The notes under the pieces were generated by a model. That model was not told the origin of the DNA. It ran no database searches and saw nothing but the letters and a program-made list of their open reading frames with translations. The position numbers and the translations under genes were made by a program. A stretch of DNA of 42,259 bases from an uncultured Bacteroidota bacterium (GTDB lineage Bacteria; Bacteroidota; Bacteroidia; AKYH767-A; 2013-40CM-41-45), in NCBI GenBank assembly GCA_937871435.1, contig CALMQM010000067.1:1-42259 (forward strand), written 5' to 3'. This document shows, in pieces, positions 6,001-35,179 of this stretch. Numbering within the stretch: the first letter of the stretch is position 1; every line of letters starts with the position of its first letter.

Positions 6001-6673
6001 TTTTGGTGACAACAGTACCGGAAATGATTTAAATCCATCTCATGATTATACCGTACCGGGAACTTACAATGTGAGTCTGCTTGTTACTTCACCGGTTGGA
6101 TGTGAAGGATCCCTGCTGATCCAACAACTTGTAGAAGTAACATCTTATCCGTCAGCAGAATTCAGTCAGTCTGCTACAGATGTAACATTGGCCAGTTCAA
6201 GTATTGCATTCACCAATATGAGCTCAGGAGCTACAAATTACACATGGGATTTTGGTGATGGATCACCACTTAATACTGATGCGAATCCATCTCACACTTT
6301 CCAGGATACAGGTACTTATATTGTTCAACTGATCACAACAAATGAGATGGGTTGTACTGATACAATCAGCAGTCTTGTAAAGGTGACTGAAGATTTCATT
6401 ATTTATATTCCGAATGCGTTTACTCCAAACAATGATCAGGTAAATGACGGGTTTATTGCTACAGGTGTTGGCTTTGCAGATTACGATATGTGGATTCTTG
6501 ATCGTTGGGGATTGAAAATTTTCCATTCAAAAGATAAAAACCAACCATGGGACGGTACATATTATCAAAATGGAAACATGGCACAAAATGATGTGTATGA
6601 ATATGTGATTCGTGTACATGATTTCCAGGGTAAACTTCACCGTTTCATCGGACATGTAACTCTGGTGAGATAA
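2..6673 (+). CDS. Giant SprB-repeat adhesin, 3' part (T9SS type B cargo)
   Basis: The reading frame is open from base 2, so the gene is cut at its 5' end by the window; 2223 residues are visible. About 24 SprB-type repeats of roughly 76 residues fill nt 2-5430, each with a core like GGTxPYxYxWSPSGG, then AGxYTVTVTDANGC and an EP or QP linker. After two degenerate Ig-like units come two PKD domains (nt ~5900-6130 and ~6150-6385, with NWNFGD and TWDFGDG cores). The end (nt ~6391-6670: IPNAFTPNNDQVNDGF, then WDRWG-like and WDGTY motifs) is a gliding-motility-associated or type B T9SS signal. The protein is therefore expected to be secreted through the outer membrane and held on the cell surface. 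SprB-repeat proteins act as mobile adhesins in gliding Bacteroidota; a role here in gliding or attachment is inferred. Repeat units follow a higher-order four-part order described in the findings. Confidence 0.93.
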   Translation, partial: GNDGSASVSASGGTAPYSYNWTPSGGSGANASNLGAGTYTVTITDGNSCTQTATAIVNQPSQLTGNLTPSPALCNGSSNGSVSVATAGGTANYSYNWFPSGGTGANATGLTAGTYTVTITDANGCTTSGSANVTEPSAIVLQSSTTPATCGTSNGTASVVVNGGSSPYSYSWSPSGGSSGNANNLTAGAYTVTVTDNNGCTQTDVANVSNTGGPTVAANILQPVSCAGGNDGSANVVVSNGTAPFTYSWSPSGGSGSSATNLQAGNYTVDVTDANGCISSDNVTITEPNSIVAQASSTSTLCNGSSDGGASVNVAGGTSPYAYAWSPAGGSSATANNLASGTYTVTVTDANGCTRTATTSVTQPASLVLNTTPVPAACNGSADGSISVGVNGGTSGYTYSWFPSGGSSSTASNLAVGNYTVTVTDANGCTSSSTATVQQPAAIALQTNSTPATCGTSNGSASVVANGGSAPYTYSWSPGGANTATASNISAGAFTVTVTDANGCTNTAVVNVANTGGPTIAASVTQNVSCNGGSNGTATVNVANGTAPFTYSWSPTGGNGLNASGLSAGAYTVTVHDANGCVSTDNINVSEPLSINALTATLPASCAGTATGSASVNVAGGTTPYTYAWSPSGGNASTANGLNAGNYTVTITDANGCTKSASASVQQPAALSLNIQPTNTSCNGVSDGSAIANPNGGTPNYSYSWFPSGGSGATASNLSTGNYSVTVTDANGCTISQSTTIQQPSAIVLQTSSTPAACGTFTGTATVVPNGGSAPYSYSWSPGNAITATASNLAAAAYTVTVTDANGCSNTAIANVSNTGGPTIAASVTQQVTCHGGANGAATVNVNSGTAPYTYSWSPSGGTAVSANGLSAGIYSIIVHDANGCVSTDNVTITEPSAIAAQSSSTDALCFGSASGGASVIVAGGTSPYAYAWSPSGGNAATANNLSAGTYTVSISDANGCTSTSSAIVGQPARLTLSMNTVPASCNGGSDGSATVNVSGGTSGYSYVWFPSGGSAATASNLAIGSYSVTVTDANGCTSTSSASISQPAAMTLQTSTNPANCGSSNGSASVVANGGSSPYSYSWSPGSSSSANATNIPAGAYVVTVTDVNGCTSTASANVTNIGGPTIAASVAQHVSCFNGNNGSGTVSVSSGTAPYTYLWSPAGGNGATANNLSAGAYTVTVHDANGCVSTDQITITQPTALAVQTNASDALCSGSATGSAGVNVAGGTTPYSYAWAPSGGSGMTANNLVAGIYTATVTDANGCTLTGSSIVGQPAAITTSMVHTNASCHGAADGTASVTAGGGASGFSYSWFPAGGSGSSATNLAAGSYQVTVTDANGCTRSASVTITEPASMTIQNSSTPATCGSSNGSASVVPAGGSAPYSYAWNPGGGNTPTINNITAGAYTATITDANGCTSSTTVVVNNTGGPNVSLASSTDVTCAGASNGSANVNVSGGTAPYTYAWSPSGGSASSASGLSGGNYTVTVTDGSGCLNVVYVTISEPAGIVLQTSSTGTACGGSTGTASVIAAGGTVPYTYSWSPGTATTSTASGLTGGNYTVTVTDANTCTSTAAVVVPSIGGASASLLTSTDVSCNGLSNGSATVVTSGGTAPFTYAWSPSGGSGASASNLAADTYTVTVTDVNGCAANVIVVINEPDAVNISMSMTPAACNGGTNGTATATVNGGTPPYQYQWSPGGSTNATANNLGVGHYSVVVTDSRGCAEVNDIDVLSASGIVLTPSATDVSCYGGSNGTTAVSSVGGTPPYTYNWSPAGGTGSNASGLAGGNYIVTVTDASGCTTTASATVNEPDALLLAVTGEATLCAGQSTLLEATVTGGTGPYTYNWSSGPNSPTQTVSPLVPTNYTVSITDANGCTTAQESVTVDLYPALSVVATGNNTLCGGTPTNISSLASGGDGNYTYSWNNGAIIGSSATVVPDHDSTFTVTVTDGCGSPAVQDQVILSVAPAPVVAFTPHEVNGCTPVHVDFINETVAPAGSVYNWNFGDNSTGNDLNPSHDYTVPGTYNVSLLVTSPVGCEGSLLIQQLVEVTSYPSAEFSQSATDVTLASSSIAFTNMSSGATNYTWDFGDGSPLNTDANPSHTFQDTGTYIVQLITTNEMGCTDTISSLVKVTEDFIIYIPNAFTPNNDQVNDGFIATGVGFADYDMWILDRWGLKIFHSKDKNQPWDGTYYQNGNMAQNDVYEYVIRVHDFQGKLHRFIGHVTLVR
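290..4849 (+). repeat. Higher-order 912-nt tandem repeat (four SprB units each)
   Basis: The repeat marked by a WFP(S/A)GG core recurs with its Trp codon at 290, 1202, 2114, 3026 and 3938, exactly 912 nt apart each time. Inside each period the Trp codons of the four units are spaced 225, 231, 228 and 228 nt, for example 290, 515, 746, 974, 1202 and then 1427, 1658, 1886, 2114. Unit A ends in a NTGGPT-like linker, B in EP, and C and D mostly in QP. After 3938 the order changes to A, B, A, B (Trp codons 4163, 4394, 4619, 4850). The repeats are diverged at nucleotide level, so the length is preserved without recent homogenisation. Confidence 0.9.
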
Positions 6674-17396: not shown

Positions 17397-20300
17397 ATGA
17401 AAAGAATTTTACTCAGCATCCTCATCAGTACCTGCTCCTTTTTTCTGTACGGGCAGCCTTATGAAAATTCGTGGATAAATTACAGCCAGCCTTATTACAA
17501 AATAAAAATTTCACAGGAAGGCATTTACCGAATCAGTCAGCAAACGCTATTATTTGCCGGTGTTCAGGTAACAGGTTCTGATCCAAGAAAAATTCAGCTT
17601 TTCCATAACGGAGTAGAGCAGTATATCCATATCGAAGGAGAAAATGATGGTCAGTTTGACGCTTCAGATTTCATTGAATTTTATGCCGATAAAAATGACG
17701 GGTCATTAGATTCCAAATTGTATGCAGATGCAACCTGGCAGCCTACACCAAACTACAGTTTATTTACAGACACAGCAGTTTATTTCCTGACCATTAGTAA
17801 TACAGTGAATGGTAAACGACTTACTGATGTAAATGAGAATAATTATTCATCCTACTCCCCTTCTCCCTACTTCATCAAAGATTCCTATCAGGATCCTACC
17901 ACGCAGGCGCAAGCCGGCAGGTATATAGGATATAACCGAGGGATGAATTCAACTTCGATTGAATATACGGAAAGCGAAGGATGGTGTGATGTGTTTGGAA
18001 ATTACTCTGCAGGAAATTATCCGCTGACTGTGATGGTGAATACGGATAAAATTTACAGTAGCGGACCGAATGTGGAAATCACTACTTGTGTCGGAGGGAT
18101 CAATAACAATCCCCACAATATTTCAATTACATTTCCCGGTGCAAATTTTACTGACACGTATTATTCGCAGTCGCTGAGAAAGTATCCGTTTTCTGTTTCT
18201 CCTGCAGTCTTTACTTCAGCATCAACGCCTTTTGTTTACAACTCCACTACTCCATTGTCTGTAAGTCTTGCCGAATACAGCGCGTTCTATTGGCTGTCTG
18301 TTCGCTATCCGCATACATATGATCTGGAAGGAAGAAATACATTTCGCATGTATGTTCCGGATGATGCTTCACAAAGCAGGACGTTGATGAACATCAGCAA
18401 TTTTAATCCTGCCGCTACTCCGGTTCTTTATGATGTTACAAACCATAAAAGAATCCTTGTTACGGCATCCGGATCGAATTTTCAGTCTCTCGTTCCGAAT
18501 GATGGAAGCAGTACTCCAAAAATGTGTTTCATTTCCACTCCCGGTTCCATCCAATCGGTGACTTCAATTTCCGGAATCAATTATGTTGCGAATAATTTCG
18601 GTTTCTTCAACAACATGCAATCCATTGGACGGGATTCAGCATTCATCATCATCGCGCATCGTTCACTATGGAATCAGGCACAAACCTATAAAGCCTATCG
18701 TGATCAGACAACCGGCAACAAGGCCATTTTGATTGACGTGGATGAATTGGCTGACCAGTTTGCTTATGGAATTCAAAAGCATCCATTATCGATCAAGAAC
18801 TTTATTCACTTCACCCTGAACAGCTGGACTGTTGCGCCACCAGAGAACCTGTTATTGCTCGGCAAATCTATTTCCGGCGCGGATTTCAGAGGCAATCCCG
18901 GCTTGTTCGCATTGTGTCTGGTTCCTTCTTTCGGAGTTCCTACATCGGACCAATTGCTGACATCCGGAATTGACGGGTCTTTGTATGAGCCAAAGGTTCC
19001 GGTGGGACGTGTCTCAGCAAGAACAGGAACAGATGTAACAGATTATCTCAGCAAGGTGCAGGAATACGAAGCTGCTCAAGCCGGTGTTCCTCAACCCTGG
19101 ATGAAAGAGATCCTGCATTTCGGAGGTGGCGACAATCTTGCTCAACAGGAAACACTTGCAGGTTACCTGGATATTTTCAAAAATGTAATGGAAGACAGTT
19201 TGTTTGGTGGTCATGTTACAACTTACCTGAAGTATAACTCCAGTCCGATCGTCATTAACCTCAGTGATTCACTGCAGGCACAAATTGATTCCGGCGTTGC
19301 TGTGATGACATTCTTCGGGCATGCTTCCGGTTCAGGTTTTGATCAGAGTACAGATGAACCATCCGCATACAATAACCGTGGAAGGTATCCGGTTGTGGTT
19401 GCTAACTCCTGTTTTGCCGGTGATTTCCATGCGTACCAAAAAAGTGTAAGTGAAAAATTTGTTCTCGAACCACAAAAAGCTGCCATCGCATTTATCGCCA
19501 GTGTAGGTCAGGGAATACCGAATGATCTGTATAGTTATTCCAATGCATTTTTTGAAAATGCTTCCTATTACAATTACGGAGCTACACTTGGCCAGTTGAT
19601 GAAAAAAGCCATTGAAACGATTCAACAACCCAATCAGGAAAACATTCGCATTGTATGTAATGAAATGTCGTTGCAGGGTGATCCATCGTTAAGACTTAAT
19701 CATTTTTCTAAACCGGATTACACAGTCAATGAAAGTAACATCAGTTTCTCTCCATCCGAAATCTCTACCGACCTTGATACTTTCCAGGTAAATGTGACAC
19801 TTAGAAATATTGGGAAAGCTGTTCAGGATTCATTCCGTGTAAATGTCATCCGCACTTACCCTGACGGAATTGATTCTGTTTTTTCATTCAAACGTGCAAG
19901 ATGTTATTATCAGGATACGATCAATCTCACGTTGAAAACAGGAGGATTCAGTTCTGCAGGTGTGAATAAAATCAGAGTTGAAATTGATTTACCGGATTCT
20001 GTTTCGGAATATAACGACTACAGTAACAATTTCACATCAACCAATGTCTTCATCAAATCGAATGACATACTTCCTGTATATCCACCAAAATTCTCCATTC
20101 ACCCCTTCTCCAGTGTTACTTTGAAAGCAAGTACATCTGATCCGCTTTCAGATGTGAGAAATTACAGATTTGAAATTGATACGGTAGATCTGAACGTCGT
20201 TGATACAACACAGGGAATGTCACCAAGCCCTTTATTCAGATTTACAGTGATCAGTGACAGCGGTGGAGTATTCAGCTGGGCTCCTCCAAACTACACTTTG

Positions 20301-22493
20301 CTTGACAGTACGGTATATTTCTGGAGAGTTGCCAATGATTCAATCACACAGGATACCGTAAATTACAAATGGCAGGAAAGTTCATTTATGCACATCTCCG
20401 GGAAAACCGGTTTTGCCCAAAATCATTTTTATCAGTTCGGACACGATAAATTTGAAAATATTCAGTACAATACAACACCAAGGAAATATGATTTCGTTCG
20501 CAACAATAAATCTCTGCGAATATTTACTAATGGATCTCCTAACGGAACACAGGAACAATACAATGAGATCGGATATTTCATGAATAATTCCCCGGTGGAA
20601 TACAATGGTTGTCAGGCTGCCGCAGCAGTAATGATTGCTGTGTTGGATTCCGTAACTCTTGATCCATGGACGACTTGTGAATACAACTTCGGCCAGGCGA
20701 ATCCATGGCTCATCTATTCAGGAGCCTGTGGCGACGCGACCATGCAGGGATACAATGTTTGTCAGGGTCCGGGTGGACGTCAGCGTCCGGAAAACTTTTT
20801 TATTTTCCGATACAGTGATCCAGCTCAGATGCAGGCCATGCAAAATATGATTTCTCAGGTTCCATCCGGAAATTACATCCTCGCCTATTCATGGTACACC
20901 TATCCCTACTCGGTTGCTGATCCATCATTCAATGCTTCGCTGGCCGGACTTGGCTTCCATATGAATATGTTGCAGGATTATACCCCGTATATTTTACTTG
21001 TAAAAAAAGGGTATGCATCCACTATAGAAGAGAAATGGGGAACCAGCGATACATCCAGAATAGAGTTGAATACATTGCTGAGTGCAATCTGGAATCGCGG
21101 CACCATCACCACTGATCTGATCGGACCAAGTACACGTTGGGAAAGTTTCCATTGGAACCAGGTTCCTGCTGAAAATCCGACCAAAGATCAGGTGTACATC
21201 AACATATTAGGATTGAATGAACTGACTAAATCATGGGACACACTTGTGAATCAATTGACATATTCAACAAGTGGGAAGGACACGACGTTAAACTGGATCA
21301 GTGCCAGTACATACAATTACCTGAAGTTACAATCCTATGTTCAGGATGATTCATTGCGAACTCCGGCTCAGATGAAATACTGGAGAATTTATTATGATGA
21401 TGTTCCTGAATGCGCGTTGAATCCGAATCGTTCATTTGGTTTTTACAGCAATCCTATACAGGAAGGTGATACCGTGAGAATGAACATAGCAATAGACAAC
21501 CTTGGCGATTTGCCAATGGACAGCCTTGATGTGAGTTTCTATTTGTATGACAACAATCGTGTTCGCCATGATATTCAGAATGTGAAACTCGATTCTTTAC
21601 GACAAGGACAATTTCTGAATGCAAGTGTTGTGGTGGATCATACATTCGGTCTGGCTGGCAATAACAGTCTTTGGGTAGAAGCAAATCCGTTCAACTCTAC
21701 TCATCAGCTTGAAAAATACCATTTCAACAATTTGATGGAAATGAAGTTTTCCATGAATCGTGATCAGATCAATCCTATTCTCGATGTCACTTTTGATGGT
21801 GTTCACATTCTGGATGGGGATATTGTATCGGGCAAACCAACCATCAACATTCAATTGCATGACGAGAATAAATTCCTTGCACTGAATGATACCGCGAAAT
21901 TCAAAGTTTACCTCAAGAGTCCGAATTCCCAGAACATGATTCCGGTTTACTTCTCTTTCCCGACTTACGGAAATACCATGCGATTTACGCCTGCAGTATT
22001 ACCAAAAAACAGTTGCAAGATAGACTGGAGCCCGGTTTTTGATCAGGACGGTATTTATATGCTGGAAGTGGAAGCGACTGATAAGTCCAACAATGAATCC
22101 GGTAAATTCAACTATAAAATTTCATTTGAAGTGGTCAATAAATCCACGATCACTGAATTTTTGAATTACCCGAATCCGTTCTCCACTTCTACCCGATTCG
22201 TGTTCACACTTACGGGGAATGAAATTCCAACGCACATGAAAATTCAAATCATGACTGTTACAGGAAAAATAGTCCGGGAAATAATGCAGAACGAACTTGG
22301 AAATATTCACATCGGCCGAAACATTACGGATTATGCATGGGACGGAAAAGACGAATATGGTGATCAGCTTGCAAACGGGCTTTACCTCTATCGTGTAGTG
22401 ACTGACCTGCATGGCGAATCTATTGAGCACCGTGCGACTGATGCAGATAAGTTCTTCAAAAAAGGATGGGGCAAAATGTATCTGATGCGATGA
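17397..22493 (+). CDS. PorU2-like C25 cysteine peptidase, putative T9SS sortase
   Basis: 1698-residue exported protein. A signal peptide spans ~1-19 (ends SFFLYGQ). A PorU-like N-terminal region follows (YYKIKISQEGIYRISQQTL), then a gingipain-type C25 domain with the catalytic pair His642 (FFGHASG) and Cys672 (VVANSCFAGDF). CARDB-like Ig domains appear near 790-890 and 1380-1460. The C-terminal ~100 residues (NYPNPFSTSTRF, then AWDGKDEYGDQLANGLYLYRV) form a FlgD-like or T9SS-type fold. PorU cleaves cargo signals and attaches the protein to the surface. This one is longer than classical PorU (~1100-1300 residues), includes a Gly/Cys-rich middle section near 1050-1140 and pairs with the PorV2-like gene, so PorU2 is the best label. 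It ends 16 nt before a strong terminator. Confidence 0.85.
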   Translation: MKRILLSILISTCSFFLYGQPYENSWINYSQPYYKIKISQEGIYRISQQTLLFAGVQVTGSDPRKIQLFHNGVEQYIHIEGENDGQFDASDFIEFYADKNDGSLDSKLYADATWQPTPNYSLFTDTAVYFLTISNTVNGKRLTDVNENNYSSYSPSPYFIKDSYQDPTTQAQAGRYIGYNRGMNSTSIEYTESEGWCDVFGNYSAGNYPLTVMVNTDKIYSSGPNVEITTCVGGINNNPHNISITFPGANFTDTYYSQSLRKYPFSVSPAVFTSASTPFVYNSTTPLSVSLAEYSAFYWLSVRYPHTYDLEGRNTFRMYVPDDASQSRTLMNISNFNPAATPVLYDVTNHKRILVTASGSNFQSLVPNDGSSTPKMCFISTPGSIQSVTSISGINYVANNFGFFNNMQSIGRDSAFIIIAHRSLWNQAQTYKAYRDQTTGNKAILIDVDELADQFAYGIQKHPLSIKNFIHFTLNSWTVAPPENLLLLGKSISGADFRGNPGLFALCLVPSFGVPTSDQLLTSGIDGSLYEPKVPVGRVSARTGTDVTDYLSKVQEYEAAQAGVPQPWMKEILHFGGGDNLAQQETLAGYLDIFKNVMEDSLFGGHVTTYLKYNSSPIVINLSDSLQAQIDSGVAVMTFFGHASGSGFDQSTDEPSAYNNRGRYPVVVANSCFAGDFHAYQKSVSEKFVLEPQKAAIAFIASVGQGIPNDLYSYSNAFFENASYYNYGATLGQLMKKAIETIQQPNQENIRIVCNEMSLQGDPSLRLNHFSKPDYTVNESNISFSPSEISTDLDTFQVNVTLRNIGKAVQDSFRVNVIRTYPDGIDSVFSFKRARCYYQDTINLTLKTGGFSSAGVNKIRVEIDLPDSVSEYNDYSNNFTSTNVFIKSNDILPVYPPKFSIHPFSSVTLKASTSDPLSDVRNYRFEIDTVDLNVVDTTQGMSPSPLFRFTVISDSGGVFSWAPPNYTLLDSTVYFWRVANDSITQDTVNYKWQESSFMHISGKTGFAQNHFYQFGHDKFENIQYNTTPRKYDFVRNNKSLRIFTNGSPNGTQEQYNEIGYFMNNSPVEYNGCQAAAAVMIAVLDSVTLDPWTTCEYNFGQANPWLIYSGACGDATMQGYNVCQGPGGRQRPENFFIFRYSDPAQMQAMQNMISQVPSGNYILAYSWYTYPYSVADPSFNASLAGLGFHMNMLQDYTPYILLVKKGYASTIEEKWGTSDTSRIELNTLLSAIWNRGTITTDLIGPSTRWESFHWNQVPAENPTKDQVYINILGLNELTKSWDTLVNQLTYSTSGKDTTLNWISASTYNYLKLQSYVQDDSLRTPAQMKYWRIYYDDVPECALNPNRSFGFYSNPIQEGDTVRMNIAIDNLGDLPMDSLDVSFYLYDNNRVRHDIQNVKLDSLRQGQFLNASVVVDHTFGLAGNNSLWVEANPFNSTHQLEKYHFNNLMEMKFSMNRDQINPILDVTFDGVHILDGDIVSGKPTINIQLHDENKFLALNDTAKFKVYLKSPNSQNMIPVYFSFPTYGNTMRFTPAVLPKNSCKIDWSPVFDQDGIYMLEVEATDKSNNESGKFNYKISFEVVNKSTITEFLNYPNPFSTSTRFVFTLTGNEIPTHMKIQIMTVTGKIVREIMQNELGNIHIGRNITDYAWDGKDEYGDQLANGLYLYRVVTDLHGESIEHRATDADKFFKKGWGKMYLMR

Positions 22494-26262: not shown

Positions 26263-26871
26263 TCATTTGCACAAACCTTCTCCTTCTAATGCAGAAGCAT
26301 CCGATGGCTTGTATAAAAGAACTTTTTCAAAAGATGAAAGCGCACCGGCCTTGTCTGAAAGTGCAAGTTTTGTCCATCCCATCAGCAAATTGGAATCATA
26401 ATCAAATGGATAAAGCTCAAGCACAGTTTCAAGATATTTCTTTGCAGTCGAATAATTTTTGCGATTGTAATATATCAACCCAGTCCGGTAATTTACAAGC
26501 GCATTTTTCGGGTCTACAGAAAGAATCGCGAGGTATTGAGTGAGTACTTCATCCCATTTATTCTGAACAGACAAGGGATAAACTAAACCTAATTTTGCTT
26601 CTACAGAATTCGGGGCTAACTGAATCGCTTTTTGATAATAGGTAATGGATTCATTGTACTCACCGGCTTCATAATAAAGCCAGCCGATTCTTAAATTAAG
26701 CTCATAGGTATTTTCCGTTGATACTGATTTCAATTCCATCGCGGCTTTAGAGTATTGTTTACTAGTTTCGTAAGCGTAACTTTTGGAGAAAACAGATCGA
26801 AGAACTGTGCTTTGCTGAGCCTGTGAATAAGAAACAACAATCAAGAAGAGGAAGAGAGATGTCTTTTTCAT
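26263..26871 (-). CDS. Exported TPR protein, last gene of the PqqD operon
   Basis: 202-residue protein with a signal peptide (~1-18, MKKTSLFLFLIVVSYSQAQ). About four tetratricopeptide repeats follow, such as GWLYYEAGEYNESITYYQKA, TGLIYYNRKNYSTAKKYLET and LMGWTKLALSDKAGALSSFE. It is expected in the periplasm as a protein-binding scaffold. Its start overlaps the stop of the preceding gene by 4 nt, so the two are translationally coupled, and the preceding protein also begins with TPR-like helices. The partner is unknown; a shared complex with the barrel protein is inferred. No terminator hairpin is obvious downstream. Confidence 0.82.
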   Translation of the reverse strand: MKKTSLFLFLIVVSYSQAQQSTVLRSVFSKSYAYETSKQYSKAAMELKSVSTENTYELNLRIGWLYYEAGEYNESITYYQKAIQLAPNSVEAKLGLVYPLSVQNKWDEVLTQYLAILSVDPKNALVNYRTGLIYYNRKNYSTAKKYLETVLELYPFDYDSNLLMGWTKLALSDKAGALSSFEKVLLYKPSDASALEGEGLCK

Positions 26872-28304
26872 AATGTGTATTTTAATCCGATAGAAAACAG
26901 ATGACTTGAATATGGAGTTAGAATATTTAGGTAATGATAATCATCAGGATAAGAAATATAATTACTCTTCTTCCGGGCAAAATGACACATAACACTTAGC
27001 GAAAGGTGAGAACTGAGTTCTGTGTATGAAGAAATTGAAATGCGAAAATCGGTTCGATCGGTAGTATTGTGAACTACAAAACCATTTAATTCAGAAGCAT
27101 TCGTCAAATCACCAAATAAACCATAAACTGACAACCAGGAATGCCTCAGACAACGAAAATCAATGCCGGCATTTATGATTCCTCTCCCCTGTTTCTCTTC
27201 ATAAAAATATGAAACCATTCCTGAGGCTGAAAAGTTTGTGTTGCCGTGAGGAAACCATTTCAATCCCGCATTGCTTTGCACCTGGATCATAGAATTTAAC
27301 TCCGAATATGATACTCCTGCCTGAACAAGATATTTATTTATTCTTTTTTCGAGGATTCCTCCGATAAGGTATTCATTGGAGGCAATTGTACTGTCATAAA
27401 AATGATACACTGTTTTAAATGAAGGACCCGGATCAATAACCTGTGCATGATATGGTTCATCATTGTTCGTACTAAAGGAAATAGAGTACTGATTCGATAG
27501 ATAGTTCCCGAATAAATTCACATGAAATGTTCCCGTGATTAACCAGCATGCATTCATGTAAAAACTTTGTTGATTCACTAAACTCTTATGCCGGTATGTT
27601 GTATCCTTATAACTGTAAATATTTCTCAGGTAAAATACTCCATTGTATGTATCCGGAACACGACCTGTCAGCTTTAAATCAGTAGCGCTTAGTCTGTCTT
27701 CCTTTTGCATCTGTAAAGTATTTCCGGAACAATACAAATTTAACCAGGGAGCCACAAAATATTTTACACCCAATTGAGCAAAATACAGTTCTCCATTTAA
27801 TGCCTGCTGGGCATATACTCCATTTTTCCGAATATCAAGCTGATTGTTTTTTGAAAAATTATTATTTAGAATAATTCCTGAGCTCAGGTCAATGGATCTG
27901 ATCGCATAATTATAATGACTCTGTTCAATTCCTTTTGTAGAGAATATTTTTTTGTAAAAGAAACGGGCGTCATCATCATCTCCTGTCTGGGCTGAATTGT
28001 ACACCAACATTTGCAAGACATCCTCATCACTCTGATTTTGGCGCAATACTTTCAAGTATTCATCTGTAGAAGAAAAATAATCCTTCTTCATCATCATGGC
28101 ATAGGCAATGCGTTTTTGAATGAGTGTATTACCCGCTCCAAGTTCAACAGCTTTGCTTCCATGATCAATTAAACTATCCCATTGGCCTGTATAATAATCT
28201 ACATACGTCAGAGAATCGTAGTCGATCGAAAGCGGTAAATCATTTTGCGCTGACGACCGTTTACAAAACAACATGATTAAATAAACAATTACTGCGCTTC
28301 GCAT
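26868..28304 (-). CDS. TPR plus outer-membrane beta-barrel protein
   Basis: 478-residue protein with a signal peptide (~1-19, ends RSSAQ). A TPR-like helical domain spans ~25-140 (AYAMMMKKDYFSSTDEYLKVLRQ and DDDARFFYKKIF are TPR-type helices). From ~150 onward alternating strands rich in Tyr, Phe and Asn end in the barrel-like terminus SHLFSIGLKYTL. This TPR-plus-barrel order resembles YaiO-type outer-membrane proteins, but I cannot confirm the family. It overlaps the upstream fusion gene by 16 nt and the downstream TPR gene by 4 nt. A role as the outer-membrane member of the operon's complex is inferred. Confidence 0.75.
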   Translation of the reverse strand: MRSAVIVYLIMLFCKRSSAQNDLPLSIDYDSLTYVDYYTGQWDSLIDHGSKAVELGAGNTLIQKRIAYAMMMKKDYFSSTDEYLKVLRQNQSDEDVLQMLVYNSAQTGDDDDARFFYKKIFSTKGIEQSHYNYAIRSIDLSSGIILNNNFSKNNQLDIRKNGVYAQQALNGELYFAQLGVKYFVAPWLNLYCSGNTLQMQKEDRLSATDLKLTGRVPDTYNGVFYLRNIYSYKDTTYRHKSLVNQQSFYMNACWLITGTFHVNLFGNYLSNQYSISFSTNNDEPYHAQVIDPGPSFKTVYHFYDSTIASNEYLIGGILEKRINKYLVQAGVSYSELNSMIQVQSNAGLKWFPHGNTNFSASGMVSYFYEEKQGRGIINAGIDFRCLRHSWLSVYGLFGDLTNASELNGFVVHNTTDRTDFRISISSYTELSSHLSLSVMCHFARKKSNYISYPDDYHYLNILTPYSSHLFSIGLKYTL

Positions 28305-30451
28305 TGGGCTGTGGTGATAGTATCGCCTTCAATAATTTCTATCTTGTTGAATCCCATTTTATCAATATAAATTCTAAAGCTTACCTTTCTGATGGTCATA
28401 GTAGAAATTCTGGAGACTGAGGAAGAATGCAATTCCATTTTTGATGTGTATTGAAAATCATCCGCAAAAACATATTTCAAATTATAGGAAGATTTCACAA
28501 GACTGAAAAAAGGCGCGGACAGGTCTTCCATCCATTGAACCAAGAAATTTGACTTGAACATCACCGGAAAAGATTCTTCGAGAATCAGATCATTGTAATA
28601 GCCAAGAAATACTTTATAACAGCTTAAATAAAACTGATACAAAAATGACTCCTTCTTGCCTTCAAAAAAATTAAACCGGAAAACAACACCATCGTTTTCG
28701 AGACGAGCAAGACTTTTTAGTTCTTCACACCAAATGGTTATTCTGTTCCATTCATCGGTATACACAATCCAGTTTTCTGTTTTACCATTCCAATTCCATT
28801 TCAAATTCTTTCCCGGTTTAAATGCAAATGCATTTTTTAGTAATGGATTAATTTCCGGATTACGAATTGATTCTCCTTCATTTGGTTTCTCAAATATTTT
28901 CAATTGAAATTCTGTTCCTTTTCTTAAAATATATGACGCAACCGGATAATCAAATGTTTTTGCGCCCACTTTTGGATCCAGTTGAACCTGGAAATGGATA
29001 TGCGGTTCGGGAGACCTTCCGGAATTTCCGCACAAACCGATAATTTCACCTCGTTTCACAAAATCACCGGTCTTGAATTTTAAACTTCCTGCTTTCAAAT
29101 GAGAAAGCTGGGTGTACACACCGTTTCCATGATTCATTACTACTGAATTTCCCCAGTTCTCTTTCGTATTGACATCAAATATCTGATTGTCATCAATTGC
29201 ATCCACAACTGTTTCAATTGTTCCATTGCCGGGAGAAAGCACAGGTTTATTGTAACAGTAATAGTCTTCGACACTATTTCCCGGAGATGTATATGTCTTA
29301 CTTTCATCATCCTGAATTACAAAATCAAATGCATTCCTCCATTGTCCTAGATGAGTGATTTTGCCATCGTGCCCCTGGCTAACTGTCCATTCTCCCCAGA
29401 ATGGCAAGGATACAGGGAAAAATTTTGCATATCGATAATTATCTTTTGTAACCAAATAATGGTACAGGTTTTTCTCCGGTGATGAATATTGTAATTGTAC
29501 CTGATGCAGATATTTTCCATTCATTCTCCATTTAAGAAGATAAAGAAAAAATGATGTACAAACAGCTAAAGACAAAGTGAAAGCCGGAAGATGGAAAACT
29601 TTTAATACTTCTGAACTACCATAATGCACAATAGCAGTAACAGGTACCATACAAATTACCGCAATGAACGACCAGGTATTGGCAACAATAAAAAATCCGC
29701 CGAGAGAAATAGCAATAAAAATATAGTTTGCTCCAACAAAGAAGTGAGTAAGGTCAGTTGTGTCTAAACCTGTGAAATGATAAAATATAAATGCAGTTGC
29801 AAATCCAACTAATGCAAGTAAAAATGAAATCCTGGAATACAAAAATAATCCGGCAGCGATCAGTAATCCTGCAACACTATTATTTTGAAAAAAAACAGCT
29901 CCGAGAGAACGACAAAATAATTCAACAAAACGTGGCAGATGAAATGGAAGTAAAGATTGCAGATGAAAGAATGGTCCATTGAAAAAATCAGCTCCCGCTT
30001 GTATTGCAGGCGAGAGAAATGTGAGGTATTTTGCACTGAGCAATAAAATCCAGATAGTGACCAAAAAAGGAAAACCCATAAATGGTAATTGGTATTTTGA
30101 GAGAAATCCCTGGAAAAGAACTGTAACAAATAAACACAAAGCAGCCATCAGGATAAGGATGACGAAATATACAGGGCTTGGTTGAAAAAATGCTCCCATC
30201 CCCATTCCGACCAAAGCGCTGCAAAAGCCAAAGACACCTTCCTCAATGCTTACCGGATTCATGGTAAATGATTCTGCAAGGATGTTAGTGATGATAACTG
30301 ATAGCAATCCGGACAAACCAATGACTGGATTCAGGAAGGAAACAAATAGCAACAGAACACCAAACCACAAACTTCTCGCAAAAAAGATTTGCGAATAGCT
30401 ATAGAGCAATCCCTGAATTTGTCGCGAACTAATTTGCTCCCAATTGACCAC
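28289..30451 (-). CDS. Urea-transporter-like / M23 metallopeptidase fusion
   Basis: 720-residue two-part protein. Residues ~1-305 match the urea transporter (UT, SLC14-like) fold: ten or so hydrophobic helices with the internal duplication, GVFGFCSALVGMGMG in the first half and QNNSVAGLLIAAGLFLYSRI plus GANYIFIAISLGGFF in the second. Residues ~340-500 are an M23 (LytM/lysostaphin-type) domain with its ligands in place: His367 and Asp376 (THLGQWRNAFDF), His451 (LSHLKAG) and His484-x-His486 (EPHIHFQ). The remaining ~220 residues form a beta-rich tail. UT proteins pass urea or small amides; M23 enzymes cut peptidoglycan bridges or act as inactive binders. The start is GTG, 4 nt after the decarboxylase stop. 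What the fusion moves or cuts is unknown. Confidence 0.82.
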   Translation of the reverse strand: MVNWEQISSRQIQGLLYSYSQIFFARSLWFGVLLLFVSFLNPVIGLSGLLSVIITNILAESFTMNPVSIEEGVFGFCSALVGMGMGAFFQPSPVYFVILILMAALCLFVTVLFQGFLSKYQLPFMGFPFLVTIWILLLSAKYLTFLSPAIQAGADFFNGPFFHLQSLLPFHLPRFVELFCRSLGAVFFQNNSVAGLLIAAGLFLYSRISFLLALVGFATAFIFYHFTGLDTTDLTHFFVGANYIFIAISLGGFFIVANTWSFIAVICMVPVTAIVHYGSSEVLKVFHLPAFTLSLAVCTSFFLYLLKWRMNGKYLHQVQLQYSSPEKNLYHYLVTKDNYRYAKFFPVSLPFWGEWTVSQGHDGKITHLGQWRNAFDFVIQDDESKTYTSPGNSVEDYYCYNKPVLSPGNGTIETVVDAIDDNQIFDVNTKENWGNSVVMNHGNGVYTQLSHLKAGSLKFKTGDFVKRGEIIGLCGNSGRSPEPHIHFQVQLDPKVGAKTFDYPVASYILRKGTEFQLKIFEKPNEGESIRNPEINPLLKNAFAFKPGKNLKWNWNGKTENWIVYTDEWNRITIWCEELKSLARLENDGVVFRFNFFEGKKESFLYQFYLSCYKVFLGYYNDLILEESFPVMFKSNFLVQWMEDLSAPFFSLVKSSYNLKYVFADDFQYTSKMELHSSSVSRISTMTIRKVSFRIYIDKMGFNKIEIIEGDTITTAQCEAQ

Positions 30452-30455
30452 CTTT

Positions 30456-31829
30456 TTACAATTTAAAAGTTTTCAAGTGCGAAGGCATATGTTCCTGAGA
30501 GGTGAGTGTATCGATGGTTTCCCGGTCACGAATCTTATGAACTTCACCTTTTGCGTCTATCATCACAACATTCGGACGCATGCTGATGAATTGCATCCAT
30601 TGTGTCATGTTGTATGCGCCAACTTTATGAACGACCACATGATCGCCACGGCTCAGCAACGGCAGATTTACACTTTCACGAATTTTATCTATGTTCATGC
30701 ACAATGGTCCGAATACAACCATTTCTTCCGAATGATGAGTAAATTCCTGAGCAGGAGAAATTTTATGTTCATACCAAAAGGCGGTAAATAAAATATTGAC
30801 ACCAAAATCCATGATGGTAGCTCTTCTTCCATCAGATAATCGTTTATTGGCAAGAACAGTTCCTAATAAATATCCTGCATCGTCAATCAATGCTCTTCCG
30901 GTTTCCAGAATTAACAGAGGCAATTCCTCCTGTTTAAAACCAAAATTCAAAATGGTGGAGGTAATGGCTTCAGCATAATCATCAAATCCCGGGCTGCTGT
31001 CAACTCCGGGTAAGTATGAACCTCTGAGAGTATTGGTTGATGCAAATCCGCCACCGAGATCAAGATATTGGATTCGCGTATTCCATTTCAACCGGATATT
31101 GTATGCGAGGTCACACAACTTCGCGGCAGCAACAGCATAGGCATTTGCTGTAAGCATAAAAGTTCCAATATGACAGTGCAAACCAACCAATTCCATTTTT
31201 TCACAGTTCATGATTTTCACAATCGCCTGCCATGCCTGATAGGATTCATAGTTAAAACCGAAACGATCCCACAGTGGATAAACTCCAACATCCATATTCA
31301 CTCGAATTGCAACTCTTGCTTTTTTTGAAGAAGTTTCTGTGATTTCAATTAAATCATACAGTTCATCAAAATGATCAATGTGAATCAACGATTCATTTTC
31401 GATTGCACGTTTTAATTCCTCTACTGTTTTATCCGGTCCGTTGAAAATAATTTTGTTTCCGGGAACACCGTTACGAATCGCTTTTTCATATTCAAAGCCA
31501 CTTACCACTTCTGCCCAGGAACCTTCCTGATGAAATACATTGCAGACTGCATCAATGTAATTGGTTTTGTAACTCCACGCGAATTGAACTTTTGGGTACC
31601 GTGTTTTAAAAGCACGCACGGCACTTTGATACGTTTTACGCATTGTACGTTCCGAAATCACAAAACACGGAGAACCATAGTCATCAATCAGCCTTTTGAC
31701 GGGAACATTATCAATATGTGAAGTGGGCGCATACTCCGTTCGTGTACCGAATTTATTCATGAGACCGGAATTCATTTTCCGGATTATCGGTCGCTCGTAG
31801 CGCAACTTAGCTTTCGTTTCAGAAGTCAT
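30456..31829 (-). CDS. Fold-III PLP-dependent amino-acid decarboxylase (LysA/SpeA-like)
   Basis: 457-residue enzyme of the alanine racemase-fold decarboxylase family. The PLP lysine is Lys88 (AWSYKTNY). HCHIG (218-222), the phosphate-binding GGG (259-261), ETGR (309-312) and the C-terminal Cys377 and Tyr406 (GAYNMTQ) are all present, so it should be catalytically active. In diaminopimelate decarboxylase the Cys lies in a CESxD motif; here it reads GPLCMNID, so the substrate pocket differs from LysA. An N-terminal ~40-residue extension is present. The gene sits between an ATP-grasp gene (10 nt upstream) and the UT/M23 fusion (4 nt downstream). Substrate unknown: an amino acid or peptide-linked amino acid is inferred. 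Confidence 0.85.
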   Translation of the reverse strand: MTSETKAKLRYERPIIRKMNSGLMNKFGTRTEYAPTSHIDNVPVKRLIDDYGSPCFVISERTMRKTYQSAVRAFKTRYPKVQFAWSYKTNYIDAVCNVFHQEGSWAEVVSGFEYEKAIRNGVPGNKIIFNGPDKTVEELKRAIENESLIHIDHFDELYDLIEITETSSKKARVAIRVNMDVGVYPLWDRFGFNYESYQAWQAIVKIMNCEKMELVGLHCHIGTFMLTANAYAVAAAKLCDLAYNIRLKWNTRIQYLDLGGGFASTNTLRGSYLPGVDSSPGFDDYAEAITSTILNFGFKQEELPLLILETGRALIDDAGYLLGTVLANKRLSDGRRATIMDFGVNILFTAFWYEHKISPAQEFTHHSEEMVVFGPLCMNIDKIRESVNLPLLSRGDHVVVHKVGAYNMTQWMQFISMRPNVVMIDAKGEVHKIRDRETIDTLTSQEHMPSHLKTFKL

Positions 31830-31839
31830 GATCGGTTAT

Positions 31840-32889
31840 TTAATTCTCTCCCAATGCGGAGAAATGTTGAAATTGTTCAATGTCAATTATCATATCCCAG
31901 GAATACCGGATGAAAGTTTTTCCAACTGAATAACTGGTATAGGGTTCAATTTTTTCTCCTAATGCCATTTTCACAAGTGCGGCCGGTTGATTTTGACCCG
32001 CTCCTACTGTCAAATAAATCCAGGCAGGAAAACGGGGGTTTACTTCCATGAAATATGGTCTGCCATCAGTAGTAACCATCAATTCCAGTTCACATCCACC
32101 TCGCCAGTTTGTAGCCCGGATAAAATCCTTAGCCAGTTTAATCAGCTTACTATCTTCAAGAGTTACACCGGCCCATGCTTTGCCTTTATCTGTAATGAAT
32201 AACTTACGCATAGGTATCGCGGAGATGGTGTTACCATTTCCATCACCTAACGCAGCTACGTTAATTTCAGTACCGTGAATAAATTCCTGTGCAATAACAG
32301 GAAGACCCCATTTGGCCTCGAGTTTATGGAAAGCTTTTTGAGCTTGTTCCAATGTCTGACACACCGTTGCATCGTAGTATTTTCCCTTCACGACAAGAGG
32401 ATAATTAAAGTGGGCTGCTGCAGCTGACAATTCAGACGCCGCATAAATTGTTCTGTCACGAGGAACAAGGAAATTGTGCTTTTTACAAAAGGAAAAGAGA
32501 TTGATTTTGTCGCGGGCTTCAAATTGTTCTGTTGTAGGTAAAAATGTATGTATACCCATTTCCTTCAGTTTTGGAGAAAGCTTGATAAAATTATAAAGCT
32601 CCGCATCAAAATTCGGAATGAGTACATCAATCTTTTCTTTTTCGTGGATGTATTCAAGTCGTGTTAACAACGATTCGCTTCCGGCTGAAGGATAAGGAAT
32701 TTGATACGCTTTATCAGTAATCCCTTCCATATAAATTCCCGGTTCCAGGGACTCATAAGATAAGCCGATAATCCGTACATTGAAATCTTCACATTCACGG
32801 ATTCCCCTGGCCACAGGAACTCCGGGTCCGGGACTATCCACTGCATTCAATCCGGTTAATGCTACAGTAAATGTTTTCTTATTTTGCAT
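31840..32889 (-). CDS. ATP-grasp ligase (CPSase/PylC-like)
   Basis: 349-residue ATP-grasp enzyme. A Rossmann-like N-terminal domain (FTVALTGLNAVDSPGPGV) is followed by the ATP-binding lysine Lys168 in PLVVKGK, the QEFIHGTEINVAALG strand with Glu202, and the Mg-binding end E-x3-GRPYFMEVNPRFP with Glu282, Asn284 and Arg286. The family joins a carboxylate to an amine or thiol through an acyl-phosphate. Here it overlaps the PqqD-like gene by 11 nt and precedes the decarboxylase by 10 nt. It may therefore act on a carrier-bound or peptide substrate; this is inferred from context only. Confidence 0.88.
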   Translation of the reverse strand: MQNKKTFTVALTGLNAVDSPGPGVPVARGIRECEDFNVRIIGLSYESLEPGIYMEGITDKAYQIPYPSAGSESLLTRLEYIHEKEKIDVLIPNFDAELYNFIKLSPKLKEMGIHTFLPTTEQFEARDKINLFSFCKKHNFLVPRDRTIYAASELSAAAAHFNYPLVVKGKYYDATVCQTLEQAQKAFHKLEAKWGLPVIAQEFIHGTEINVAALGDGNGNTISAIPMRKLFITDKGKAWAGVTLEDSKLIKLAKDFIRATNWRGGCELELMVTTDGRPYFMEVNPRFPAWIYLTVGAGQNQPAALVKMALGEKIEPYTSYSVGKTFIRYSWDMIIDIEQFQHFSALGEN

Positions 32890-33130
32890 TGGAATTCATT
32901 AAGTAATTGTCACGCAACTCCTGCAGAAATTCATCCAGATCTCTTTCTACAGTTGACTTCTCAACATCATATTTCGAAAGGATGAATTGCTTAATTTCTT
33001 CCGGAGATTTATCCTGTTTCAGCAATGAAATTATATCTGTTGCTACTGGATTACTGGAAAAAGAATCCCCGTTTGTTGGATTAAAAAGGTAGCCGGATTC
33101 GCTGACTGCAATATTCGATAAGAGCTTCAT
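32879..33130 (-). CDS. PqqD-family peptide-recognition protein
   Basis: 83-residue PqqD/RRE-like protein. The pattern GYLFNPTNGDSFSSNPVATDIISLL, then KSPEEIKQFILSKYDVEKSTVERDLDEFLQEL, matches the PqqD core (FNP-x-TG-x-S-x2-N-x2-A, then an EI and a D-x-x-x-FL-x-x-L helix). PqqD and RRE domains bind leader peptides of ribosomally made natural products and hand them to modifying enzymes. No precursor peptide is recognisable nearby. It is the first gene of the six-gene operon, and its stop overlaps the ATP-grasp start by 11 nt. Confidence 0.85.
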   Translation of the reverse strand: MKLLSNIAVSESGYLFNPTNGDSFSSNPVATDIISLLKQDKSPEEIKQFILSKYDVEKSTVERDLDEFLQELRDNYLMNSNAK

Positions 33131-33402: not shown

Positions 33403-34092
33403 CTACTTTCTATTGATAAACTCATTTACAGCATCCATATAAGTCGTGCCAACAGGTATTTCTTTACCTGCAATGCGAATCATTTTATTACGGATGCTTT
33501 CAATTCGTTTTACCGGAACAATATAACTTCTATGGACACGAAGAAAGTCATTTGCAGGTAAGATCTCAAGCACAGACTTCAGGCTCATCAATGTCATGAT
33601 TGGTTTGTCACCAACATATATTTTAATGTAATCATCCCATCCTTCAATGAACTGAATTGCATTGATGAAAATTTTGATCATTTGATAATCAGATTTTACA
33701 AAAATGAAGGGATCGTCCTCCTTGTCAGGATGTTTTATCTTATAAATTTGATGTGCCTTGTTTACTGCTTTTTGAAATCGGTCGAAGCTGAACGGTTTGA
33801 GCAGGTAATCCACTGCATTAAGTTCGAATCCTTCCACAGCATATTGATCAAATGCTGTAGTAAAAATTATGGATGGAGGCTGTTTGATAGATTTCAACAA
33901 CTGAATACCGTTGATATGAGGCATTTGTATATCCAAAAAAATCAGATCCAGATCATTCTTATGGATGTATTCAGATGCATTAATTGCATCATGAAAAGTT
34001 GCTTTCAATTGGAGAAAAGGAATTTGCTCCACATAAGACTGGATCAATTCAACCGCAAAAGGTTCATCATCTATGATTATACAACGCAACAT
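33403..34092 (-). CDS. LytTR-family response regulator
   Basis: 229-residue cytoplasmic regulator. A receiver domain (~1-120) has the phospho-acceptor Asp54 (LIFLDIQMP), Asp8-Asp9 of the acidic pocket, Thr79 and Lys99 (DYLLKPF). A LytTR DNA-binding domain (~125-229) has VKSDYQMIKI and LRVHRSYIVP, both typical. It starts on the stop codon of the kinase gene (TGATG, 1-nt overlap), so the two form a coupled LytS/LytTR pair. The next gene in the same direction is the PqqD operon 272 nt away, which makes that operon a plausible target. Confidence 0.94.
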   Translation of the reverse strand: MLRCIIIDDEPFAVELIQSYVEQIPFLQLKATFHDAINASEYIHKNDLDLIFLDIQMPHINGIQLLKSIKQPPSIIFTTAFDQYAVEGFELNAVDYLLKPFSFDRFQKAVNKAHQIYKIKHPDKEDDPFIFVKSDYQMIKIFINAIQFIEGWDDYIKIYVGDKPIMTLMSLKSVLEILPANDFLRVHRSYIVPVKRIESIRNKMIRIAGKEIPVGTTYMDAVNEFINRK

Positions 34093-35159
34093 CAGACAAT
34101 CAATTCCAAATGTACAACATAGTTGTTATTTAAATTATCAATTTGCAACTTGTGTTTCCCGGGATATAACAAGTCAAGCCGTCGCCGGGTATTGGCAATT
34201 CCAATATTTGTTGAAGCGGTAAGAATATTCGCGTAATCAAAAATCTGATTTGTTGTTGACAGAATCACTTTTGATTTCCCGACCACAATGGAAATACTGA
34301 TTGTGGATTGTTCATGCGTACTCACACCATACTTAAAGGTATTTTCAACAAATGGCATCAGAATTAAAGGTGCAACAGATACACCTTCCGGGTTACCTAT
34401 GACTTGAAAATTCACCTCCACCTTATCAGTCAGTCTCAGTTTCTGCAGATCAATAAAACGGGATAAATATTCTACTTCTTTCACTAACGGAACATAATCT
34501 TCTTTCGCTTCGCTGATAACATATCGCATCATCTCGGAGAGTTTAAGAACAGCATCTGCCGTCAGATCAGATTTTTTAGAAGCCAGTGTGTAAATATTAT
34601 TTAGTGTATTGAATAAAAAATGTGGGTTGATCTGAGCTTTCAGGAGCGACAATTCATGCGATTTCTTCTCGTATTCAATCTCCTGAGCACGCTTTTCTGA
34701 CTGAAACCAAAGGTCTGTTATTCTTCCAATTCCACTCATAATAAAAACGAGAGAAATAAGAAGTACGGAAGAAATAATCATTCCTCTGTTCAAAGGTCTT
34801 TCCGGGTGCATCATCTGGTCCGGAATAGCTACCAGAATGAGAAACAACACAACACAAAGAAGCACAATCAAACCATATTCCCATCTCTTTTGTCTGGAAA
34901 GAAATTTGGGAATAAAAACAAGCGCATTGAGGTAATAGAATGCGATCAATGATACATACAAGACGACCAGAAACAAACGAGGAGGCGGAGGAGGTTCCTG
35001 CAATCTTCCGGATTCAGGATTATTCAATTCCGGGGCCTGAAGTGTAACAGCAGACAATGGTCTTGGCTGAGGTCGCACCAGTTTTGGGAAATACATATAG
35101 TGCAAACTAATAAGAGCCGCCCAGACAAGAATATGCGTCAGTATTTTTGAGTAATTCAC
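34092..35159 (-). CDS. LytS/YehU-type sensor histidine kinase
   Basis: 355-residue kinase of the His_kinase (LytS/YehU) group. Four transmembrane segments lie in the first half (around 8-25, 65-85, 95-115 and 130-147) with no large extracellular domain. A proline-rich loop (EPPPPP) lies between the first two. The H-box KAQINPHFLFNTLNNIY carries the phosphorylated His180, and LMPFVENTFKYG and GIGIANTRRRLDLLYPG form the ATP-binding part. The frame is open to a TTG at 35174, but that codon is inside a TACATTTG promoter box, so the GTG at 35159 (MNYSKILTHILVW) is chosen; TTG at 35165 is possible. The signal sensed is unknown. Confidence 0.9.
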   Translation of the reverse strand: MNYSKILTHILVWAALISLHYMYFPKLVRPQPRPLSAVTLQAPELNNPESGRLQEPPPPPRLFLVVLYVSLIAFYYLNALVFIPKFLSRQKRWEYGLIVLLCVVLFLILVAIPDQMMHPERPLNRGMIISSVLLISLVFIMSGIGRITDLWFQSEKRAQEIEYEKKSHELSLLKAQINPHFLFNTLNNIYTLASKKSDLTADAVLKLSEMMRYVISEAKEDYVPLVKEVEYLSRFIDLQKLRLTDKVEVNFQVIGNPEGVSVAPLILMPFVENTFKYGVSTHEQSTISISIVVGKSKVILSTTNQIFDYANILTASTNIGIANTRRRLDLLYPGKHKLQIDNLNNNYVVHLELIV

Positions 35160-35171
35160 TTTCAAGCAATT

Positions 35172-35179
35172 CAAATGTA
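35172..35179 (-). promoter_or_regulatory. -7 promoter element of the kinase-regulator pair
   Basis: Minus-strand TACATTTG matches TAnnTTTG at all fixed positions and lies 12 nt before the GTG start of the kinase. No clear -33 box is seen. Confidence 0.5.

Follow-up and report, generated by a model that had tools for sequence, protein, structure and literature searches.

ATP-grasp ligases are found alongside an amino-acid decarboxylase, or form a side-chain amide, in the biosynthesis of butirosin (BtrJ/BtrK) and pyrrolysine (PylC). The pathways of ribosomally synthesised and post-translationally modified peptides (RiPPs) employ RiPP recognition elements (RREs), and those of the YxxP-binding type bind the leader motif [Y/W]xxPx[L/V/I/F/A] (PMC13381572; also PMC6784204). 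In the RRE LppB, an Asn holds the kink at the leader proline and an Asp bonds the leader tyrosine; in LPP leaders, the part that follows YxxP makes no contact with the RRE, and it has been suggested that this part meets the modifying enzyme (PMC13381572). Here we describe a six-gene operon, named D-G-P-U-B-T, which encodes an RRE, a ligase and a decarboxylase together with three membrane and envelope proteins. It lies in the window, i.e. the whole analysed stretch of 42,259 nucleotides (positions 1-42,259 of contig CALMQM010000067.1, assembly GCA_937871435.1) of an uncultured Bacteroidota bacterium (Bacteroidia; AKYH767-A; 2013-40CM-41-45). That the operon is real and conserved is well supported, and the docking of D to a leader-like tail of P is well backed by sequence evidence. 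The six genes are as follows.

33130-32879, minus strand: D, 83 aa, a PqqD-type RRE (PF05402, 48.8 bits)
32889-31840, minus strand: G, 349 aa, an ATP-grasp carboxylate-amine ligase of the carbamoyl phosphate synthetase (CPSase)-like PRK12767 group with a PylC-like N-terminal domain
31829-30456, minus strand: P, 457 aa, a fold-III pyridoxal phosphate decarboxylase (Pfam Orn/DAP/Arg decarboxylase, both domains), closest to FigC/FslC
30451-28289, minus strand: U, 720 aa, GTG start, a fusion of a urea transporter (UT) and an M23 peptidase (Pfam UT 179 bits, Peptidase_M23 59 bits)
28304-26868, minus strand: B, 478 aa, with a signal-peptide-like N-terminus, tetratricopeptide repeat (TPR) hairpins and a FadL/OmpG/CymA-like outer-membrane barrel, according to a predicted model
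26871-26263, minus strand: T, 202 aa, an exported TPR protein (Pfam TPR) with a signal-peptide-like N-terminus

The gaps between consecutive genes, from D to T, are -11, +10, +4, -16 and -4 nt. These values and the six open reading frames (ORFs) are exactly those of the original prediction, whose domain calls for each gene were upheld by Pfam, with B resolved by structure prediction. The view expressed there of a single coupled unit, with a front half of small-molecule or peptide type, an envelope back half and no recognised pathway, is supported as well, and no match to a characterised pathway turned up.

Scanning for the locus with U, at one genome per species, returned 56 loci. The order D-G-P-U-B-T on one strand is found in about 40 of them, and contig ends interrupt most of the remaining loci; T is kept in nearly all, and the D of one locus (L019) was located by reading the sequence. 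The hosts include Pedobacter, Labilibaculum, Ancylomarina, Yeosuana and many Bacteroidales metagenome-assembled genomes (MAGs), as well as Ignavibacteriae and Chlorobiota MAGs, and the homologues in Bacteroidota and Chlorobiota/Ignavibacteria MAGs have identities of roughly 50-74% in G and P and of about 20% in B. One Verrucomicrobia MAG carries a rearranged version that holds most of the genes: D-G-P-U run in the usual order and T-like genes lie upstream. Since the same six genes recur in the same order across Bacteroidota and Chlorobiota/Ignavibacteria MAGs, the operon is not a product of chance. In an even sample of the phylum (296 genomes), G is present in 27, and the same 27 hold a P orthologue (at least 586 bits, against 187 for the next-best decarboxylase) and an adjoining long U, the open frame of which is shortened in one genome (G005). 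Two loci (L035 and L052) carry U-B-T without an adjacent D-G-P, which is located elsewhere in the same genome. The co-occurrence across genomes and these split loci therefore indicate that the coupling of D-G-P with U-B-T is functional and not a mere matter of gene order. One MAG (G563), for which no completeness is stated, has U and no P match; in a sample of 295 genomes of the class, P was found in 59, and a plasmid search found it on no plasmid. Whether all six genes are conserved together, or their homologues routinely scattered, had been left to be checked; joint conservation is strongly borne out and routine scattering did not occur. The unit is widespread, yet literature text searches, with most subscription journals outside their reach, found no published description of the six-gene combination. 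In a single-contig genome (G124), two copies of G and P with identical scores lie near both contig ends (L089, L092), which reflects either a recent duplication or an assembly overlap.

D is the sole PqqD-family protein of its genome. The best match of a profile of 36 D homologues in the PDB is the lasso RRE TbiB1 (E 1.3e-13), with TfuB1 at E 9e-9, and the lasso PqqD family NF033530 matches 36 of 36 D proteins, all below its cut-off. These matches mark D, by sequence, as a genuine member of the YxxP-binding RREs. With the lasso RREs (TbiB1, TfuB1/FusB1) and LppB it shares the fold family, the proline-holding Asn, the tyrosine-meeting Asp and a partner motif, YxxPx[I/L]; in contrast to these systems, the motif is carried by a 450-aa enzyme rather than a small precursor, and the operon is without a leader peptidase or lasso cyclase. 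The elements concerned are the following.

33050..33052, minus strand: D residue N27, equivalent of LppB N33 (proline kink), Asn in 120 of 121 loci
32939..32941, minus strand: D residue D64, equivalent of LppB D70 (hydrogen bond to the leader tyrosine), never Asp where the tail of P has Phe
31746..31808, minus strand: the leader-like N-terminal tail of P, KLRYERPIIRKMNSGLMNKFG, residues 8-28, which matches YxxPx[L/I]

Residue F68 of D, which like N27 corresponds to a position in contact with the motif, is kept as F, Y or L across the loci. Among 38 aligned P proteins the tail follows, with small variations, the consensus (Y/F)E(R/K)Px(I/L)xK(L/M)...NKFG, and (Y/F)xxPx(I/L/V) is present in all 38; its most conserved residues are K-F-G, in which F gives way to Y, I or M in a few. 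Non-operon decarboxylases are without this tail, as P-profile matches to them begin after most or all of the extension, and in its own genome and 20 related genomes a tail profile reaches a significant E for P only. With the same profile, the genome itself gave no small ORF with such a leader at a significant E. A short conserved peptide ORF had been anticipated nearby; no conserved precursor ORF of 18-110 aa was found beside the 56 loci, where only antisense shadows of histidine kinase (HK), AraC or operon genes appeared, and the likely partner of the RRE is instead the tail of P. The variation of the two proteins is consistent with this. In 121 loci, the tail residue and D residue 64 are Tyr with Asp in 102, Tyr with Asn or His in 8, Phe with Tyr, Ser or His in 11 and Phe with Asp in none (L104, with a YERP tail, was counted as Tyr), and 48 additional genomes have Tyr/Asp pairs only. 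The G tree implies a single loss of Asp64, and its Asp-less part, with 15% of the tree length, takes in all three changes from Tyr to Phe; the rough probability of such a placement is 0.155 cubed, about p 0.004. This is a weaker count, used here in place of a stricter tree-based independent-pairs test, in which the pairs were too few for significance. We consider it likely that D docks the tail of P. If so, RREs can also serve as docking modules for enzymes, and not as readers of precursor peptides alone, and some RREs without a precursor gene need not be RiPP-related.

The nearest solved relative of P is the N-citrylornithine decarboxylase FigC/FslC, the P family profile scoring 278.6 bits for FigC (7kh2), 210 for diaminopimelate (DAP) decarboxylase, 134 for BtrK and 80 for SbnH. 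We mapped the active site of P on the residues given in the FigC structure paper (PMC7857480). The catalytic set K88, R176, H220 and C377 is kept (FigC K63, R151, H198 and C354), as are the contacts to the amide and aliphatic side R312, T349, Y353, M378 and Y406 (FigC R290, T327, Y331, M355 and Y383), so that the two enzymes also share Cys-Met at the catalytic loop. P differs from FigC in its extra N-terminal tail, in having an ATP-grasp partner (G) in place of a synthetase for NRPS-independent siderophores (NIS synthetase), and in the citryl contacts H357, R387 and N389, which are replaced by I380, Q410 and M412; Q410 is invariant in 38 P proteins and I380 is found in >90%. An acidic residue for a free side-chain amine is missing, as M378 adjoins the catalytic C377, and the Arg of LysA for the distal DAP carboxylate (R343) is replaced. 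Because the amide contacts are kept and those for a free amine, DAP and the citryl group are lost, the substrate is probably an amino acid whose side-chain amine is acylated, with an acyl group other than citrate. We infer that P, like FigC, acts on N-acyl amino acids and not on free ones, and the earlier call of an amino-acid decarboxylase is revised to that extent. Two other assignments were rejected: P as the meso-DAP decarboxylase LysA, since R343 and the acidic neighbour of the catalytic Cys are replaced and the genome has a separate LysA-like gene (besides one further decarboxylase gene), and P as an N-citrylornithine decarboxylase proper, since the citryl contacts H357 and R387 are replaced.

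In G, the ATP-grasp residues E282/N284/R286 are invariant among homologues, and there is weak kinship to CPSase and PylC-like proteins, with a PylC-like N domain in 22 of 36. An ATP-grasp enzyme with these residues and this kinship could make a side-chain amide, and the analysis of P and G narrows the chemistry to side-chain-acylated amino acids. Unlike BtrJ/BtrK, the operon has no acyl carrier protein, and the P profile favours FigC (279 bits) over BtrK (134 bits).

U consists of three parts.

29441..30451, minus strand: U residues 1-337, urea-transporter fold with 10 transmembrane helices (VIA Z 37.8 to human UT-B, 9j22)
28889..29425, minus strand: U residues 343-521, M23/LytM domain with H367, D376, H451, H484 and H486 invariant in 46 homologues
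28292..28888, minus strand: U residues 522-720, C-terminal beta-rich domain, with a confident model and no match seen in fold searches that barely covered it

The M23 domain has its zinc and catalytic residues, at an H-to-D spacing of 9 rather than the usual 4. The loops of U that lie on the same side as its N and C termini hold on average 10.5 K+R and 3.1 D+E, compared with 3.6 and 6.5 on the opposite side, and standalone Bacteroidota UTs have the same bias (K+R 7.0 versus 0.8, from four sequences, two of them full length). By the positive-inside rule this charge bias places the termini inside, and therefore the M23 and C-terminal domains are predicted to face the cytoplasm. The cysteine content also fits a cytoplasmic side (1.1% in the M23 and C-terminal part versus 0.2% in the exported B and T), although three of the cysteines are largely conserved. 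The suggestion that the UT/M23 protein moves or attaches a product at the envelope is hence not supported as worded. Residues 1-337 share fold and topology with urea transporters (UT-B, DvUT; Z 37), but U has the fused M23 and beta domains, a Glu-to-Ala change in the second GEVxFQ pore motif of the U sequences compared and no tie to urease. No urease was found in the genome of the operon; a true urease is present in 1 of 27 U genomes, on another contig, compared with 5 of 8 genomes with a standalone UT, and urea use is therefore an unlikely role of U. B and T have signal-peptide-like starts, as read from the sequence. B, which has no Pfam match over the cut-off, was modelled by AlphaFold (pLDDT 89.7) as N-terminal TPR-like helical hairpins followed by a FadL/OmpG/CymA-like barrel (VIA Z 20 to FadL). 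Exporters such as PgaA, BcsC and PelBC likewise place TPRs before an outer-membrane barrel, and FadL-like channels are also similar; B differs from PgaA/BcsC/PelBC in its short TPR and its type of barrel, and the operon contains no polysaccharide synthase.

We propose an RRE-tethered two-step ligase-decarboxylase pathway in the cytoplasm combined with a membrane and envelope module, a model which, taken as a whole, we hold to be evenly poised between right and wrong. D would dock the leader-like tail of P and thereby bring P to G; G would join a carboxylate to the side-chain amine of an ornithine- or lysine-like diamino acid, and P would remove the carboxyl group of the resulting N-acyl amino acid, leaving an N-acyl primary amine. 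Either this product or a fragment released by the M23 domain on the cytoplasmic side might then exit via the urea-channel-like pore of U and pass via T and the barrel B. The chemistry of G and P and the side of the M23 domain we infer from the residues and charges described above, whereas the route through U, T and B and the identity of the product are speculative, and the trimming of a product or tag by M23 is a hypothesis. The front half resembles RRE-guided recruitment, but what it recruits appears to be an enzyme. The broader idea, in which a RiPP-type RRE has been co-opted for metabolic enzyme assembly, docking a tagged decarboxylase that works with a ligase and a channel whose cytoplasmic M23 domain trims the product or tag before export, is tentative and rather improbable; if true, it would constitute a new class of biosynthesis-export machine. 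What is new here is the lasso-like RRE D with the P tail as partner, the FigC-like P without citrate contacts and the predicted cytoplasmic M23 domain of U. Several points weigh against the proposed mechanism. Neither NCBIfam nor Pfam yielded a leader family for the P tails (stray matches were a weak DUF5972, E 0.08, in L005 and Sirohm_synth_M in L060), and the Gly and Phe of the tail are presumably spaced unlike those of lasso leaders. The loss of Asp64 in one clade only leaves few independent covariation events, and a cytoplasmic M23 peptidase would be unusual. Moreover, the UT pore is narrow, 2-3 A at its constriction (PMC10541013), which is tight for an N-acyl diamine.

The gene order of RRE, ligase and tailed protein would also fit P being itself the substrate of modification, in which case D would present P to G, and G would modify a residue, e.g. 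in N-K-F-G, to mature or regulate P, applying the logic of a RiPP to a whole enzyme. Neither a second protein with such a tail nor a gene for a small peptide was found, and the most conserved K-F-G lies in the post-YxxP part of the tail, the part proposed to contact the enzyme in LPP leaders; the complete FigC-like active site, however, marks P as an enzyme, and G and P are biochemically sensible as consecutive enzymes, which renders this alternative unlikely. We give still less credence to a RiPP pathway with its precursor peptide encoded elsewhere and the tail of P as only a structural or competing element. D is by sequence a bona fide RRE, as such a pathway requires, but the absence of a conserved short ORF beside the 56 loci, the restriction of significant tail-profile matches to P and the lack of any other RiPP enzyme in the operon speak against it. 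Neither a lasso leader peptidase (transglutaminase fold) nor an Asn-synthetase-like cyclase was matched among the six products. A standard RiPP cluster was accordingly rejected, as an RRE is present and a precursor gene, leader peptidase and cyclase are not.

About equally improbable is a metallophore or siderophore-like pathway, in which G and P would make a chelator for export by U-B-T, as FigC, SbnH and PvsE decarboxylases do their part in carboxylate siderophores. The closeness of P to FigC fits, and some loci have AraC regulators and a few RND-type efflux genes nearby; set against this, no NIS synthetase (IucA/IucC-type) was found in the operon or among its conserved neighbours, the citryl contacts of FigC are lost in P and no TonB receptor is conserved with the operon. 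Least probable by a clear distance is that U, with unrelated metabolic genes beside it, takes up urea or an amide nutrient or remodels periplasmic peptidoglycan. Its UT and M23 annotations are what would suggest such a role, which is countered by the urease distribution given above, by the predicted cytoplasmic side of M23 and by the strict co-occurrence of U with G and P. The tethered ligase-decarboxylase pathway with an envelope module thus remains our preferred interpretation.

Directly upstream of the operon lies a two-component pair.

33403..34092, minus strand: LytTR response regulator, a likely regulator that stands beside the operon in about ten loci
34092..35174, minus strand: LytS-type HK, paired with the LytTR regulator

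In ten loci (L014, L021, L025, L026, L030, L033, L040, L048, L051 and L054), an AraC-type regulator upstream of D replaces this pair, hinting at two alternative controls. An IF-2B family gene (eIF2B/ribose-1,5-bisphosphate isomerase-like), which may encode an accessory pathway enzyme, is found between P and U in three loci and immediately precedes U in a fourth. In four loci, a protein of roughly 260 aa with a type IX secretion system (T9SS) sorting tail is encoded within the operon or next to it. None of the AraC, LytTR pair, IF-2B and T9SS-sorted genes is a universally conserved extra neighbour.

L007:7007-7915, L015:7162-7995, L016:7123-7953 and L052:5064-6062: IF-2B family genes
L014:5414-6202, L033:5776-6555, L023:4002-4823 and L019:9543-10340: T9SS-sorted proteins

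Elsewhere in the window, positions 251-6673 (plus strand) encode a large T9SS-secreted adhesin-like protein of 2140 aa, which has PKD domains, no fewer than 14 SprB repeats and a type IX secretion signal of the CHU_C family. Positions 17397-22493 (plus strand) encode a protein of 1698 aa whose Peptidase_C25 domain is of the sort seen in PorU/gingipain-like proteins of the T9SS.

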